Shown piece by piece: positions 4,735-9,101 of a stretch of DNA of 64,000 nucleotides. The first letter of the stretch is position 1. Each line of letters begins with the position of its first letter. Both the position numbers and the translations under genes were made by a program. Where the stretch lies: the NCBI GenBank assembly GCA_017535665.1, contig JAFXTS010000025.1, positions 124,001 through 188,000 on the forward strand, given 5' to 3'. The notes below the pieces were generated by a model. The model was not told the DNA's origin, did not search any database, and was given only the letters and a program-made list of their open reading frames with translations. Source of the DNA: Bacteroidales bacterium (GTDB taxonomy: Bacteria > Bacteroidota > Bacteroidia > Bacteroidales > WCHB1-69).

Positions 4735-4763
4735 GAAGTCGCAAGGAGAAATTCGAGCGGAAA

Positions 4764-4846
4764 GCATGCCCGGTCGCCCTAAATAAAGAATTAGACTTTA
4801 AGCCATCATTAGTTTAACGTACTCGGAATATCAAGTAATAAAAACT
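4764..4846. repeat. Island left-flank repeat A, copy 1
   Basis: About 83 bases align with 7326-7410 with one 2-base gap and about five substitutions. The repeat begins GCATGCCCGGTCGCCCTAAA and ends with the direct repeat GTTTAACGTACTCGGAATAT... (4812-4845), which recurs on the far side of the lipoprotein gene at 5203-5237. The last bases overlap the stop codon of the gene at 4845. Confidence 0.85.
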
Positions 4847-5159
4847 ATTTCTCCGTACAAGTGGTGATATAGTGTAGGCGAAGTCCTACTTCAGGATGGT
4901 CAACCCCGACAGAGTCGTAATAGTTGAGCGATTCGCAGTCGTCTGACTGGAGAAGCGTGTCATAAATGTATGTCTTGGGTTGGATGGATATGTCAGATTT
5001 AAAATAGTAATCCCCTCCTGAGGCAAGCCATGCGGCCGAGTCCACCACTTCGTTGCCGATATCGTTTGCACATTCACAAAGATGCTCTTTCTTGCAGCCC
5101 GTGACCATAATGGCCAGTGCGACAGTGACAAAATACAATGGAATTAGAATTTTTTTCAT
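4845..5159 (-). CDS. Small predicted lipoprotein, cassette cargo 1
   Basis: This 104-residue protein begins MKKILIPLYF and carries a lipobox (VTGC, Cys at residue 22), so it should be an acylated envelope lipoprotein. The mature part is cysteine-rich (CKKEHLCEC...DDCES...TTCTEK) and rich in aspartate and tyrosine. I recognise no family. It is the only gene between repeat A copy 1 and repeat B copy 1. The coding sequence is unrelated to the lipoprotein at 7421-7948, although the flanks are nearly the same. No typical minus-strand -7 box lies close to the start; CAAAACTA at 5332-5339, read on the minus strand as TAGTTTTG, is a possible distant promoter. Confidence 0.65.
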   Translation of the reverse strand: MKKILIPLYFVTVALAIMVTGCKKEHLCECANDIGNEVVDSAAWLASGGDYYFKSDISIQPKTYIYDTLLQSDDCESLNYYDSVGVDHPEVGLRLHYITTCTEK

Positions 5160-5202
5160 GTGGTAAGGATTTATATTAACTTTTCAATTCTCAGTTTTCA
5201 GT

Positions 5203-5460
5203 GTTTTAACGTACTCGAAATATCAGGTCATCAAAACCTGCAGAATGGTACGTTTTGTGAATCATAATTAGTACAACGATTTTTGTCTAAAAAAATTATG
5301 CACTTTCGCATTTTTTGCACTTTTTATGGCGCAAAACTACAAAAAAAGCCGTCACATAGTTGCAACGGCTTTCGGAAACTAATCAAATCAGACGCTTCTA
5401 CTCCTCCACCACTTCCCAATGGCCGCCCGAAAGCAAATCAGCGACAAGAAATTGCCGCTG
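5203..5460. repeat. Island right-flank repeat B, copy 1
   Basis: About 258 bases align with 7989-8230. The repeat opens with the direct repeat GTTTTAACGTACTCGAAATA (5203 on) that also ends repeat A, then a small hairpin CAGGT...ACCTG (5224-5240), an AT-rich middle, AAAGCCGT...ACGGCTTT (5345-5372) and the CAGCG...CGCTG hairpin (5439-5460). Copy 1 keeps the hairpins better than copy 2. Short open frames across it (for example 5283-5597) look accidental. Confidence 0.85.
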
Positions 5461-5484
5461 ATTTTTTGTTCAGCTCTTTAACGC

Positions 5485-5574
5485 GCTCCCGGAGGGAGCA
5501 ATTTTCAATAACCCCGCATGCAATGTGGGGCACGGGCAAGGCCATCCATATCATAGCGTGCAGGAAGCACGCGC
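5485..5574 (+). repeat. Three-hairpin element, copy 1
   Basis: Three stem-loops in about 90 bases: GCTCCC/GGGAGC (5485-5499), CCCCGCAT/ATGTGGGG with loop GCA (5512-5530) and GCGTGC/GCACGC (5556-5572). The linker TTCAATAA precedes the second hairpin, and CACGGGCAA follows it. The element recurs at 7215-7304 and, on the minus strand, at 20879-20974, with different stem bases but pairing kept. Confidence 0.8.
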
Positions 5575-5624
5575 TTATATTATTAGGCATATACTAAAAA
5601 AACATCTGCTATCGTTAATTAGAC

Positions 5625-6305
5625 ATGAGCCATATTGCTGAAAACATGGAGAATCCTACAGACAAACAGAAAGGGAAAGAAAAACCATTATTTAAACACA
5701 AAACCGCGCTTATTTTGACAGTGTTAACCGTGGTTTTATGGGTGACTTTCGCCACTGTTAGGTTGCTTTTGCCAAAGTTCACGCATTTGGCATATATGGG
5801 CGACGGTTGGCTGCTCATAGCGGCCACAATACTCACTTCCGTGATGTGTGCTTGTTGGTTTCATATACTTTCTAAACAATGGCATCCTGTTGGGAAGGTT
5901 GTGTTATGGATAGTCTATCCCGTGCTTACACTCTTTTGGTTATTTTGCATTTTGTTTGGATATGGGTATTTGGAACGGGACATTCTGACAGACAGATCCA
6001 TAAAAGCCACAAATGATGAACATTACGTGCTTCATCGCAACTTCGATGGCACTATCAACCTTACTTCATTATACCACCGACAAGGTTTTCTCGAAAAGGA
6101 GGTCTGTTGGCTCGACTTCTACTCCCCCTACACTTCAAAGGAGACTCTTCAGGTTTATGAGGATTTGGATGTCATTGTTTTCGAATACTTTGATGATTAT
6201 TCAAAGCAATGCCAAAAAGACCTGTATCATTTCAATGGAGATTTGTATGAAGGGGCGGCCCGGGATTCTGTTTTACGCCTGCTCCCTCCTCGTAAATCCG
6301 AATAA
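5625..6305 (+). CDS. Predicted three-helix membrane protein of unknown function
   Basis: This 226-residue protein has a charged N-terminus rich in lysine, three predicted membrane segments (about residues 27-48, 62-84 and 91-114) and a soluble C-terminal part of about 110 residues rich in tyrosine, aspartate and leucine. I recognise no family. It lies just after three-hairpin element copy 1 and converges on the minus-strand membrane-protein gene at 6327, leaving about 20 bases between stops. The two proteins share a layout of membrane helices followed by an acidic tail, and a similar HPV(G/R)KVV segment before the last helix, so they may be distant relatives. AT-rich codon use differs from the ligA operon and suggests accessory DNA. 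Confidence 0.65.
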   Translation: MSHIAENMENPTDKQKGKEKPLFKHKTALILTVLTVVLWVTFATVRLLLPKFTHLAYMGDGWLLIAATILTSVMCACWFHILSKQWHPVGKVVLWIVYPVLTLFWLFCILFGYGYLERDILTDRSIKATNDEHYVLHRNFDGTINLTSLYHRQGFLEKEVCWLDFYSPYTSKETLQVYEDLDVIVFEYFDDYSKQCQKDLYHFNGDLYEGAARDSVLRLLPPRKSE

Positions 6306-6326
6306 AATATCGTAGAAGTAAGATAC

Positions 6327-7100
6327 TTAATTCTCCTCCAGCACTTTCCATAAATCATCATCAAAATATCCGTTGTCATCAGATTCTATAGAACAGGCGC
6401 AGTCCGCTTTTACGGGATGCGACGGGTAGACGGCATGGTAGAGTACGACACGGCTTTCAAGGGGCATTCCTTCCAGAGGGTCCTTGTCACCCGTGAGGCG
6501 CATTCCCAGCACCATGGCGGGGTCGTGCAACGGCGGTCTCCAACCATCGAAAATACAAATGCGGGTATGATAACGGAAATGCATTCCCAAGATGCGCTCC
6601 GTCATCGGATTTTTGGTGGCATATTCTCCATTCTGAATCTTTTTGGCGGCACTGGAGAACAACAATGCCGACACAATGGCACCCACCACACATAAGGTAA
6701 CGCCGCTAAAATACCAGATTCTGACCACTTTGCGGACAGGATGCACCACATTATTCCAAATCAACAAGAAAAGAAACCATATCGGCACCGGGAACAGCAA
6801 TATTCCCCATTCCAAGAAAAGCAACCAATATGCGTAAACACCGGTGCTAATGCCGCAAATCAGCGCATTAACCTGCCAAAAGCGAGTGCGCTCAACCCAA
6901 GTGAAGGAGATAATATTAATGAAACAGATGATTTGCAATATCATTGCCCAAGGAACAAAGACACAGAAACCACCATTATAGCTAACATTAATCCATATTG
7001 AAATGGCAATAAGGATGGCGTTCAGAATAGGAAATACGCAATTCCAAATCTTATCGCGATGCTGCTGAAAGAAATAACGGATATTTTTCATAGAAATCAT
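6327..7100 (-). CDS. Predicted five-helix membrane protein of unknown function
   Basis: I set the start at the ATG at 7100 (MISMKN...). It has an AAGGTGG ribosome-binding site just upstream, and the further open frame up to 7253 has no such site. The 257-residue product has about five membrane helices (roughly residues 15-38, 41-64, 73-95, 96-118 and 128-150) and an acidic C-terminal tail of about 100 residues. No family is recognised. It converges with the gene at 5625, and the pair sits between two same-orientation copies of the three-hairpin element (5485 and 7215). An ATG at 7091 is an alternative start. Confidence 0.6.
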   Translation of the reverse strand: MISMKNIRYFFQQHRDKIWNCVFPILNAILIAISIWINVSYNGGFCVFVPWAMILQIICFINIISFTWVERTRFWQVNALICGISTGVYAYWLLFLEWGILLFPVPIWFLFLLIWNNVVHPVRKVVRIWYFSGVTLCVVGAIVSALLFSSAAKKIQNGEYATKNPMTERILGMHFRYHTRICIFDGWRPPLHDPAMVLGMRLTGDKDPLEGMPLESRVVLYHAVYPSHPVKADCACSIESDDNGYFDDDLWKVLEEN

Positions 7101-7214
7101 TGATGAGCCACCTTGGGAATAACGGATAACATAAACGGAATATTGTAAGGAGCATTTGACTTTTGAATCAATAGTGCTAAGGGGCCGAATCAGACTTGGG
7201 TGATTTCGTGACAA

Positions 7215-7304
7215 GCTCCCGAAGGGAGCAAGTTTCAATAACCCCACATGCAATGTGGGGTACGGGCAAGACCATCCATATCATAGCGTGCCAAAGGCAC
7301 GCGC
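7215..7304 (+). repeat. Three-hairpin element, copy 2
   Basis: GCTCCC/GGGAGC (7215-7229), CCCCACAT/ATGTGGGG (7242-7260) and GCGTGCC/GGCACGC with loop AAA (7286-7302). Compared with copy 1, the second stem changes a G.T wobble to A-T, and the third stem has an extra C-G pair with a different loop. These are changes that keep the fold. Confidence 0.8.
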
Positions 7305-7325
7305 TTTCATTCATCCATTGAGAAC

Positions 7326-7410
7326 GCATGCCCGGTCGCCCTAAATAAAAAGAATTAGACTTTAAGCCATCATTAGTTTAACGTACTCGAAATATCAGGT
7401 CATTAAAACT
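7326..7410. repeat. Island left-flank repeat A, copy 2
   Basis: This is the second copy of the sequence at 4764-4846, starting only about 20 bases after three-hairpin element copy 2. It ends in GTTTAACGTACTCGAAATAT... (7376-7409), 11 bases from the stop codon of the lipoprotein gene at 7421. Confidence 0.85.
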
Positions 7411-7420
7411 TCATAGCATT

Positions 7421-7948
7421 TTATTCTTCGTAATATAAATCCGTAACATTTATTTGTGGTATATATGATTGACAAGGAGATTCTTTTCGACCTTCACCAG
7501 CTGGTAAATCCACCATCTGAAGTGTACCAGTAACATAGCATCTTTTTGTCAAATCTACGCTGTCCGCATTAGGAAACAGCGTCGGTCGGTTCGAAAAATT
7601 GCAGTAAATGATCTCGTATGTTCCATCAGGAACCATATCATCTTCCCCTGCAAAATTTGGATTATCTGTAAGCGCAACAAGACAGACGCTGTTTGACTGC
7701 ATAAACCAACCACAAACCTTTACATTTTGTCCGTTATAGTGTTCAGCTTCTTTTGCCGATTCTGTTACGAGACTGTAATTATAAAAGATGGCATTACACG
7801 TATTGTAGCCCGTGTCAGAAAGAGAGGGGATATCCTTGCCTTTCAATTTATTATGACACTGTTTGTCGCAGGATATGGATGAAATGGCCATAACGATAAA
7901 AGTTGCAGCAAAGATGCAGAATGCGAAAAATAGTGATAGTTTTTTCAT
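7421..7948 (-). CDS. Predicted lipoprotein, cassette cargo 2
   Basis: This 175-residue protein has a hydrophobic signal and a lipobox-like SSISC (Cys near residue 27). The mature part has several cysteines and a VKVCGWFM...YEIIYCNFS...RCYVTGTLQMV pattern that could be an OB-like beta fold; that is a guess from the strand pattern. I recognise no family. It stands alone between repeat A copy 2 and repeat B copy 2, as does the unrelated lipoprotein at 4845-5159. The AT-rich composition matches the rest of the island. Confidence 0.65.
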   Translation of the reverse strand: MKKLSLFFAFCIFAATFIVMAISSISCDKQCHNKLKGKDIPSLSDTGYNTCNAIFYNYSLVTESAKEAEHYNGQNVKVCGWFMQSNSVCLVALTDNPNFAGEDDMVPDGTYEIIYCNFSNRPTLFPNADSVDLTKRCYVTGTLQMVDLPAGEGRKESPCQSYIPQINVTDLYYEE

Positions 7949-7988
7949 GATGAGTGGTTTTTATAGTTGATTCGTTGATTTTTTTATT

Positions 7989-8230
7989 GTTTTAACATAC
8001 TCGAAATATCAGGTCAAAAACCTGTAGAATGGTACGTTTTGTGAATCATAATTATTACAACGATTTTTGTCTAAAAAAAATTGTGCAATTTCGCATTTTT
8101 GGAACTTTTCAAGGCGCAAAAACACGAAAAATCCGTCTCATCATTGCAACGGCTTTTCGGATACTAATTCTATCAGTCTCTACTTCCTCCTTCCTAATGG
8201 CCACCCGAAGGTGAAGCAGCGACAAGAAAA
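7989..8230. repeat. Island right-flank repeat B, copy 2
   Basis: Aligns with 5203-5460. It begins GTTTTAACATACTCGAAATA, has the CAGGT...ACCTG hairpin (8010-8024) and ends with the decayed hairpin start CAGCGACAAGAAA. The inner AAAGCCGT/ACGGCTTT stem is broken here (ATCCGT/ACGGCTTTT). Copy 2 therefore looks older or less constrained than copy 1. Confidence 0.85.
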
Positions 8231-8252
8231 TGTAAAAATATTCTCAAAAAAA

Positions 8253-8305: not shown

Positions 8306-8638
8306 ATGGAAATAAAAGAACCGTTTTATACGGAGGACGAAGTCCTTGACGAATTCATTGGCAAAGTTGGAACGACTGAACGTGATGAATTCGAAGCCAA
8401 GGTCAAAAAGGAGGTTGACGACTATTACATTGGCGAGGCTATCAAACAAGCTCGGAAGAGACAGGGGCTAACCCAAGATGAGCTGGGAGAACGCATGGGG
8501 GTCAAAAAATCCTTTGTTTCAAAGATTGAGAGCGGCAAAGGCATAGCCTACAGCACCATTATGCGTGCGTTCAAGGCTCTCGGCGCAGAAACCGCGACAC
8601 TTGACCTTGGCAAACTTGGACGAGTATCGCTTTGGTAG
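8306..8638 (+). CDS. XRE/HigA-like helix-turn-helix regulator, no partner toxin seen
   Basis: This 110-residue protein has an acidic helical N-terminal arm and a Cro/C1-type HTH (about residues 48-100: IGEAIKQARKRQGLTQDEL, then SFVSKIESGKG). The arm plus HTH arrangement is that of HigA-type antitoxins. A HigB/RelE toxin gene is normally adjacent, but none is present: the upstream DNA is repeat B, and downstream is a DUF4160 remnant. It may be an orphan antitoxin or a free-standing regulator. The palindrome at 8253-8270 is its probable binding site. Confidence 0.8.
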   Translation: MEIKEPFYTEDEVLDEFIGKVGTTERDEFEAKVKKEVDDYYIGEAIKQARKRQGLTQDELGERMGVKKSFVSKIESGKGIAYSTIMRAFKALGAETATLDLGKLGRVSLW

Positions 8639-8666
8639 AATTACCGATTAAAATGGAAAAAAATTG

Positions 8667-8674
8667 TACTTTTG
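8667..8674 (+). promoter_or_regulatory. -7 promoter element before the DUF4160 remnant / DUF2442 unit
   Basis: TACTTTTG matches TAnnTTTG and lies 24 bases before the ATG at 8698. It is probably the promoter for the unit running into DUF2442 and mtaB. Confidence 0.6.
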
Positions 8675-8697
8675 CACGCTAAAAATCTAATATTACT

Positions 8698-8776
8698 ATG
8701 GCCGAAATCTGTAGATTCTATGGGATGAATTGATGAGAATGGCGAATCATTAGCAACAATCAATCCATTAGACTAA
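8698..8776 (+). pseudogene. Collapsed DUF4160 gene
   Basis: The ATG at 8698 opens MAEICRFYGMN and stops at 8731. This matches the conserved N-terminus of DUF4160 proteins (M-P-x-I-x-x-F-Y/F-G). In another frame, 8729-8776 reads IDENGESLATINPLD and stop, which resembles the family's C-terminal end (...E/D-P-L). The middle of an approximately 80-codon gene is missing. DUF4160 genes usually stand directly before DUF2442, as this remnant does. An internal deletion with loss of frame is the simplest reading. Confidence 0.6.
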
Positions 8777-8777
8777 T

Positions 8778-9101
8778 ATGCTGAATAATAATAAATTAAT
8801 ATGGATCGTAGAGGCTGAGGCAATGGCCCATCACCTTTTGAGGCTGAAATTCAGCGATGGCAGCATCAAAATGTTCGACTGCAAGCCTTTGATTGCACAA
8901 TTGCCTGCACTCAAAGAATTGCAAAATGAAGCCGTATTTCGCAAAATCGCTTTAGATGGATGGACCGTCACACGGCTGAATGGCACGATAGACATCGCTC
9001 CAGAATACCTCTACGAGAAAAGCGTGCCGGCATACGATACCTCCGAAGTTGCGCCAGCAGTTGTGGCAGAATCACAAGTACCCTACAACCCGTCAAAATG
9101 A
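8778..9101 (+). CDS. DUF2442 domain protein
   Basis: This 107-residue protein has the DUF2442 core (a motif like LLRLKFSDGSIKMFDCKPLI, then FRKIALDGWTVTRLNGTIDIAPEYLYEKS). Members are small proteins usually encoded next to DUF4160 and thought by some to form a toxin-antitoxin-like pair; no activity is established here. The N-terminal partner gene has collapsed (8698-8776). The stop overlaps the mtaB start as ATGA, so translation is coupled. The last 25 residues are a low-complexity extension. Confidence 0.8.
   Translation: MLNNNKLIWIVEAEAMAHHLLRLKFSDGSIKMFDCKPLIAQLPALKELQNEAVFRKIALDGWTVTRLNGTIDIAPEYLYEKSVPAYDTSEVAPAVVAESQVPYNPSK

Follow-up and report, generated by a model that had tools for sequence, protein, structure and literature searches.

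The integron cassette consists of a gene and one recombination site, and it needs an integrase and folded attC sites. Here, we describe two cassette-like units in a stretch of 64,000 nucleotides from a Bacteroidales bacterium (assembly GCA_017535665.1, contig JAFXTS010000025.1, positions 124,001 to 188,000), referred to throughout as the window. In each unit, a lipoprotein-like gene (the cargo) lies between two copies of a direct repeat (the core), and conserved flanks, named A and B, lie beyond the cores and together form the platform. Like integrons, these units and their relatives in other genomes combine a gene with one site, form arrays in which most genes point one way, occur also in an empty state, and have platforms for which a promoter is predicted. 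Arrays without an adjoining recombinase gene are also a feature of the integron cassette clusters that lack an integrase. In contrast to integrons, the source genome contains no integron integrase, XerC and XerD being its only tyrosine recombinases, and the single-stranded core is not predicted to form a hairpin as attC does (-0.7 kcal/mol for the 35-mer; z, 0.3 on one strand and 0.4 on the other).

In its working, the closest system is that of the dif modules of Acinetobacter. As far as excerpts of two accounts describe them, these modules carry a single gene or a small number of genes between Xer sites and hold no recombinase, the host XerCD being the proposed mover, and they are present on plasmids and chromosomes, also in chromosomal arrays (PMC12907356, PMC13141974). 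Neighboring pdif sites are described in the second of these excerpts as alternating in orientation, which gives C/D and D/C modules (PMC13141974). The cassettes reported here are likewise free of a recombinase, and their host has XerC and XerD (XerC lies 1.2 bits under its profile cut-off). They differ from the dif modules in that all cores of an array point one way, so that a single cassette can come or go alone; in the site, which is like dif at only 19 of 28 bases, the Acinetobacter sites being nearer to dif; and in the fixed platform with conserved flanks, the phylum and the cargo.

The rAID arrays of Bacteroidales were described, in the excerpted part of the source, as having a tyrosine recombinase next to (upstream of) the array, orphan immunity cargo, and short, co-oriented genes of low GC content (under 41%) with conserved intergenic sequence (PMC12247911). 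The genes of the present arrays are short, with conserved sequence between them; the longest ORF has one orientation in 16 of 19 cargos, and the GC content of the cargos averages 40.2%, with a range (27.6-47.7%) that reaches beyond the rAID limit. Orphan immunity cargo is suspected for the second gene of the window (cargo 2); the difference is that no tyrosine recombinase lies beside the arrays. The C10 protease inhibitors of Bacteroides fragilis, named Bfi, are small exported or lipoprotein barrel proteins beside C10 proteases, according to an excerpt of their description (PMC2873492). Three relatives of cargo 2 are located directly upstream of C10 proteases, a likeness to Bfi that comes from gene context and not from sequence comparison, whereas the predicted OB-like fold of cargo 2 and its place as a cassette gene without a protease set it apart. 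We class the cassettes described here as a variant of site-specific gene-cassette systems.

Cassette arrays and the exchange of cargo

The source genome (G000) comprises 2,559,928 bases in 33 contigs, and the window corresponds to C24:124001-188000. Both units of the window read flank A, core (35 bp, GTTTTAACGTACTCGAAATATCAGGTCATAAAAAC), cargo, core and flank B, in one orientation (Table 1). Based on blastn alignments, the A copies (4760-4846 and 7322-7410) are 92% identical over 89 columns and the B copies (5195-5454 and 7981-8232) are 83% identical over 262 columns. A 28-mer of the core, with up to three mismatches allowed, has three matches in the window and none in each of 100 shuffles. 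A preliminary description of the window had reported the repeats A and B twice in the same order and orientation, a direct repeat of 33-35 bases around each cargo, and one minus-strand lipoprotein gene in each pair of repeats; all of this was borne out, the direct repeat as three 35-mers and one 33-base form, and the genes as open reading frames (ORFs) of 104 and 175 amino acids (aa).

In the 2.56-Mb genome, a 21-mer of the core gave six matches (reversed control, 0), which constitute three bracketing pairs, two in the window and one on contig C32. The C32 unit has flanks like A and B and a different cargo (84-aa and 223-aa ORFs), and it adjoins a tRNA-His gene. The genome-wide search for the direct repeat, proposed in the preliminary description, thus found it to be rare and to bracket cargo in all six copies, which contradicts the idea of repeats that are frequent and unlinked to genes. 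The question of whether further copies bracket other small genes was answered in favor: the C32 pair brackets another cargo, which holds two ORFs.

Among relatives, the core (up to three mismatches) was detected in 16 of 104 genomes of the family, the source included, which belong to 4 of 17 genera (reversed control, 0). A sample of 393 genomes from across the order yielded it in two, which both belong to this family. Ten stretches on eight contigs of seven named assemblies were all titled Bacteroidales or Bacteroidetes; yak abomasum or sheep rumen appears in two of the titles, and RUG names denote rumen genomes. Most three-mismatch matches of the 21-mer look like chance: they occur once each in distant genomes, in which the reversed control scores as well. 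No match was obtained for the empty platform in plasmid or phage collections, or for the core or cargo 2 in viral contigs, and nothing among the matches listed from the open-licence literature describes such cassettes in Bacteroidales.

For the comparison of arrays, 20 loci with 39 cores were normalized, two later-found cores of the degenerate set in G110 being left out. Platform loci read A-core-(cargo-core)n-B, with n from 0 to 3. Most loci hold one cassette, G028 and one contig of G111 (B side unseen) hold two, and G064 holds three; in these multi-cassette arrays, the core alone separates the cargos. Two core pairs without recognizable A or B were found in G003, and G065, G084, G034 and G090 have a single core each and no cassette. 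The exchanged unit is the cargo plus one core, and A and B are a platform that itself occurs at several addresses.

Comparisons of sequence between genomes make it very probable that the cassettes move as core-bounded units. At a distance of 400-2500 bp, the flanks of G087 and those of G089 are 89.6 and 92.8% identical on the left (374 and 249 columns) and 88.5% identical on the right (1130 columns), and this same address carries unrelated cargo, 762 bp with a 231-aa ORF in G087 and 487 bp with a 152-aa ORF in G089. A third cargo is present in G086, whose left flank is 91.8% identical to that of G087 and whose right flank matches as well (89.3%, 244 columns). The 487-bp cargo (cargo X) is identical at 486 of 487 bases (99.8%) between G089 and G028, which belong to different genera. 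Identity is lower in A (94.4%) and B (90.7%), and the far flanks do not match; the exchanged stretch therefore ends near the core. The second cargo of G028 is the first cargo of G064, at 95.0% identity.

An empty site was found in G012, where A is joined to B via one core, free of cargo. To the left of this A, the DNA aligns with C32 over 3764 columns (89.6% identity) and 1391 columns (89.1%), and G012 has extra DNA near A relative to C32; the alignment is lost on the right side of B, and the orthology of the empty site is therefore one-sided. At the C32 address in G007, the tRNA-His gene is present and no A, core or B lies within 1.35 kb beside it, so the platform itself may come and go; the stretches compared from G004 and G001 contained no tRNA gene. 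The earlier proposal that conserved flanks with exchanged cargo are the mark of modular gene exchange is supported by the empty site, by the arrays of two and three cassettes and by the shared cargo at unlike addresses, and the suggested check on relatives revealed both presence or absence and swapping of cargo, with junctions at the core.

In 15 loci, some 150 bases of B beside the core are conserved. A TAnnTTTG box faces the cassette in 13 of these 15 B copies (mean of shuffles 1.8, maximum 6), which are homologous and not independent, and it lies 100-107 bases from the core (126 in G005). Flank B is predicted from its sequence to hold a platform promoter that points at the cassette. The far part of B recurs without the core in many genomes and is probably a common terminator. 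In G005, about 25 extra bases are present between the last core and B (L070 7752-7775), perhaps a cassette remnant; G010, with the same cassette and the same left flank, is without them.

The putative dif-like core and the candidate recombinases

A putative, conserved dif site was used for G000, G064, G086, G028 and G111. The reverse-complemented core agrees with the putative dif of the source at 19 of 28 bases, ungapped and with the spacer in register. Equally good dif matches were obtained for 0.08% of 20,000 random genomic 35-mers (cores included) and 0.065% of shuffled cores, about 1 in 1000, and within 129.5 kb of source loci dif alone scores higher than the core copies, while one unrelated site scores equally. 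The A-adjacent cores stand out at bases 1-2 (12 of 14, versus 0 of 25 of the others) and at base 13 (6 of 14 versus 2 of 25). One cassette, Y, found in two contexts, shows differences only at bases 1, 2 and 9 of the left core and base 22 of the right core. Together, these patterns fit a crossover between bases 13 and 22.

Two PF00589 proteins were found in the source genome (97% complete), encoded at C24:46391 and C2:29150. In profile searches, XerD scored 343.6 bits (cut-off 329.6) and XerC 334.0 bits, just under its cut-off of 335.15, and the XerD gene lies on C24, like the window, about 82 kb from the window arrays. No serine recombinase (PF00239) was detected in this genome. The preliminary description had noted that no integrase is in the window; this is correct, as the only two tyrosine recombinases of the source genome lie outside it, and the absence of a dedicated tyrosine or serine recombinase extends from the window to the source genome as assembled.

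Very probably, these are mobile, mostly single-gene cassettes on a conserved platform, and it is about an even question, as far as sequence can tell, whether the XerC and XerD of the host insert and excise them. The core would then be a diverged dif-like site that reads on the reverse strand, with a XerD-type arm at core bases 2-12, a spacer at 13-18 and a XerC-type arm at 19-29. A circular cassette would recombine with the core of the platform, by which the core would be duplicated, excision would be the reverse of insertion, and the promoter in B would express the cassette gene. A wider proposal is put forward more tentatively: the system may be an integrase-free counterpart of the integron. 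Its chromosomal platforms would supply a promoter of their own and, as the docking site, a diverged relative of dif, at which the housekeeping enzymes XerC/XerD would gather small genes and exchange them among genera of Bacteroidales in the ruminant gut; many of the gene products would be exported, and some would be orphan inhibitor or immunity lipoproteins. If this is true, modular gene capture of the kind found in integrons and Acinetobacter dif modules extends to the chromosomes of gut Bacteroidales and needs no dedicated integrase there. The core would provide a direct handle for finding cassettes in metagenomes and for cataloging the exchanged, uncharacterized cargo, and it opens the question of whether the enzymes of chromosome-dimer resolution double as an engine of gene exchange.

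Several observations weigh against the main reading of XerCD-driven cassettes. The main argument against XerCD is that the core is without the inner TATAA and TTATG of dif, and a pdif site of Acinetobacter with one changed conserved base in the XerD arm was called likely inactive, in the excerpt concerned (PMC13141974). The core agrees with four other dif sites at 16-18 of 28 bases, and a conserved dif was found in five of the eight genomes searched, with none in the ten matches of G003 or among the matches listed for G010 and G012. Cassette X has a difference in the left half of its right core, at base 10, and is a partial exception to the crossover pattern. The empty site is a single case, alignable on its left flank only. 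The second B of the window has no TAnnTTTG box, and no -33 box was recognized in the B copies, so that the promoter is a prediction only. Functional clues among the cargos are confined to cargo 2. Finally, the sequence argument for XerCD proceeds by exclusion and similarity only, and we regard the action of these enzymes as evenly balanced.

Exchange at the core would be explained just as well by a dedicated site-specific recombinase, belonging to a visiting mobile element or to some of the genomes, with the source arrays left stranded in the manner of integron cassette clusters that lack an integrase. When tyrosine recombinases were surveyed in 14 other core-bearing genomes (G034 was left out), three or more (3 to 8 PF00589 proteins) were found in 10 of the 14, a result that favors such an enzyme and counts against XerC/XerD, as does the only partial likeness of the core to dif. 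However, G003, G084 and G086 have two PF00589 proteins each, and the source genome, G003 and G086, which have no more than these two, are 94-99% complete. Furthermore, none of the 63 PF00589 matches in the 14 genomes lies on an array contig, the XerD gene of the source is some distance off, and a serine recombinase (PF00239) was found in only one of eight genomes, G012. A dedicated recombinase is possible in our view, though rather doubtful.

Homologous recombination between A and B arms, with the core as a border and cargo loss as slippage between the 35-bp repeats, is improbable. Between genomes, A and B show about 77-94% identity and could be used as arms, but the core alone stands between the cargos in arrays of two and three cassettes, the core pairs of G003 have no A or B, and cargo X is far more alike across genera (99.8%) than the A (94.4%) and B (90.7%) around it. 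An old tandem duplication of one lipoprotein gene and its flanks, followed by divergence beyond recognition, would suit two similar units close together in the window with lipoprotein-like genes in both, but it was rejected as extremely improbable, since the arrays, the shared cassettes and the empty site contradict it, 19 bracketed cargos fall into 14 groups, and the two cargos are unlike beyond the signal peptide while the non-coding flanks are 83-92% identical.

Behind one core of G003, the first half of that core is repeated in reverse, and the resulting 51-base palindrome (L068 8022-8072) folds strongly as single-stranded DNA (-15.7 kcal/mol, z -7.3). A relative of cargo 2 is located beside it (L068:8113-8598).

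Cargo proteins and other features of the window

The preliminary description saw no similarity between the two lipoproteins. BLASTP gave just a 5-residue match (E 22), and profile-profile alignment joined 24 columns, which represent the signal peptide only; with this exception, the statement stands, and no homology of the two cargos was found by sequence or by profile search. The model of cargo 1 (mean predicted local distance difference test score, pLDDT, 42.6) is unusable for structural comparison, and that of cargo 2 has a mean pLDDT of 80.6.

An orthologous cassette of cargo 1 is present in G005 and G010, with DNA 95.8% identical. A database relative of cargo 1, protein P0016, is near-identical in the last third and unrelated in the first part, as if recombination had occurred inside the gene. 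The structural matches of cargo 2, among those listed, are OB-type domains; no staphostatin or lipocalin is among them, which does not exclude either, and a sequence-profile search of the PDB gave a single match, a nanobody (E 0.68). The relatives of cargo 2 lie directly upstream of a C10 protease in three of eight loci examined, and cargo 2 itself stands alone in its cassette, with no adjoining C10 protease. The prediction for cargo 2 is an orphan lipoprotein of the inhibitor or immunity type, directed against C10 cysteine proteases. In the source assembly, the ends of contigs C3, C17 and C13 (L249, L250) hold three relatives of cargo 2. Two of these are 96% identical over 477 columns, and such near-identical copies probably broke the assembly.

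Based on blastp of their longest ORFs, the 19 core-bracketed cargos were classified into 14 groups. The longest ORF runs from B to A in 16 of the 19. A signal peptide or lipobox was recognized by eye, with no predictor, at the start in 8 of the 14 groups, and two more groups have the look of membrane-bound proteins. The cargo is not always a lipoprotein and sometimes comprises more than one gene. The GC content of every cargo (mean 40.2%, range 27.6-47.7%) is below that of its locus (44-53%). No Pfam family scored above cut-off in 10 cargos (one each from 10 of the 14 groups, cargo 1 being without a family), PADLOC reported nothing for seven ORFs (cargo, core-adjacent or related), no match to resistance or toxin-antitoxin families was found among the cargos examined, and no SUKH or other immunity domain was recognized in the cargos. 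One cassette of G086 (L120 6943-8352) contains three tandem related ORFs (127, 126 and 108 aa) of a family that does not look exported, of which G068 has one; this is growth inside a cassette.

Table 1. Features of the two cassette-bearing platforms, in window positions.
Feature	Position	Strand	Remarks
Flank A, first platform, left of core	4760..4810	+	92% to 7322-7374 plus its core; kept beside core in relatives
Core, A-adjacent, cassette 1	4811..4845	+	35-mer; last base within the cargo 1 stop codon
Cargo 1, 104-aa lipoprotein-like ORF	4845..5159	-	ORF call; without known family
Core, B-adjacent, cassette 1	5203..5237	+	35-mer
Flank B, first platform	5238..5454	+	83% to second B; conservation over about 150 bases across 15 loci
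TAnnTTTG box, predicted -7 promoter element facing cargo 1	5332..5339	-	In 13/15 B copies
Flank A, second platform	7322..7374	+	blastn against first A
Core, A-adjacent, cassette 2	7375..7409	+	35-mer
Cargo 2, 175-aa lipoprotein-like ORF, predicted OB-type barrel	7421..7948	-	Relatives upstream of C10 proteases
Core, B-adjacent, cassette 2	7989..8021	+	33-base form, two bases missing
Flank B, second platform	8022..8232	+	blastn and alignment of B copies

Between the two islands, a 97-base direct repeat (5485-5581 and 7215-7311; 89% identical), built of three small palindromes, encloses a 226-aa and a 308-aa ORF. Directly right of the second B (8306-9101), a gene of the XRE helix-turn-helix type is present together with a 107-aa ORF. 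The best NCBIfam match of the former, below cut-off, is a HipB-type antitoxin model, and none was found in NCBIfam for the latter; the two are possibly a toxin-antitoxin-like pair.

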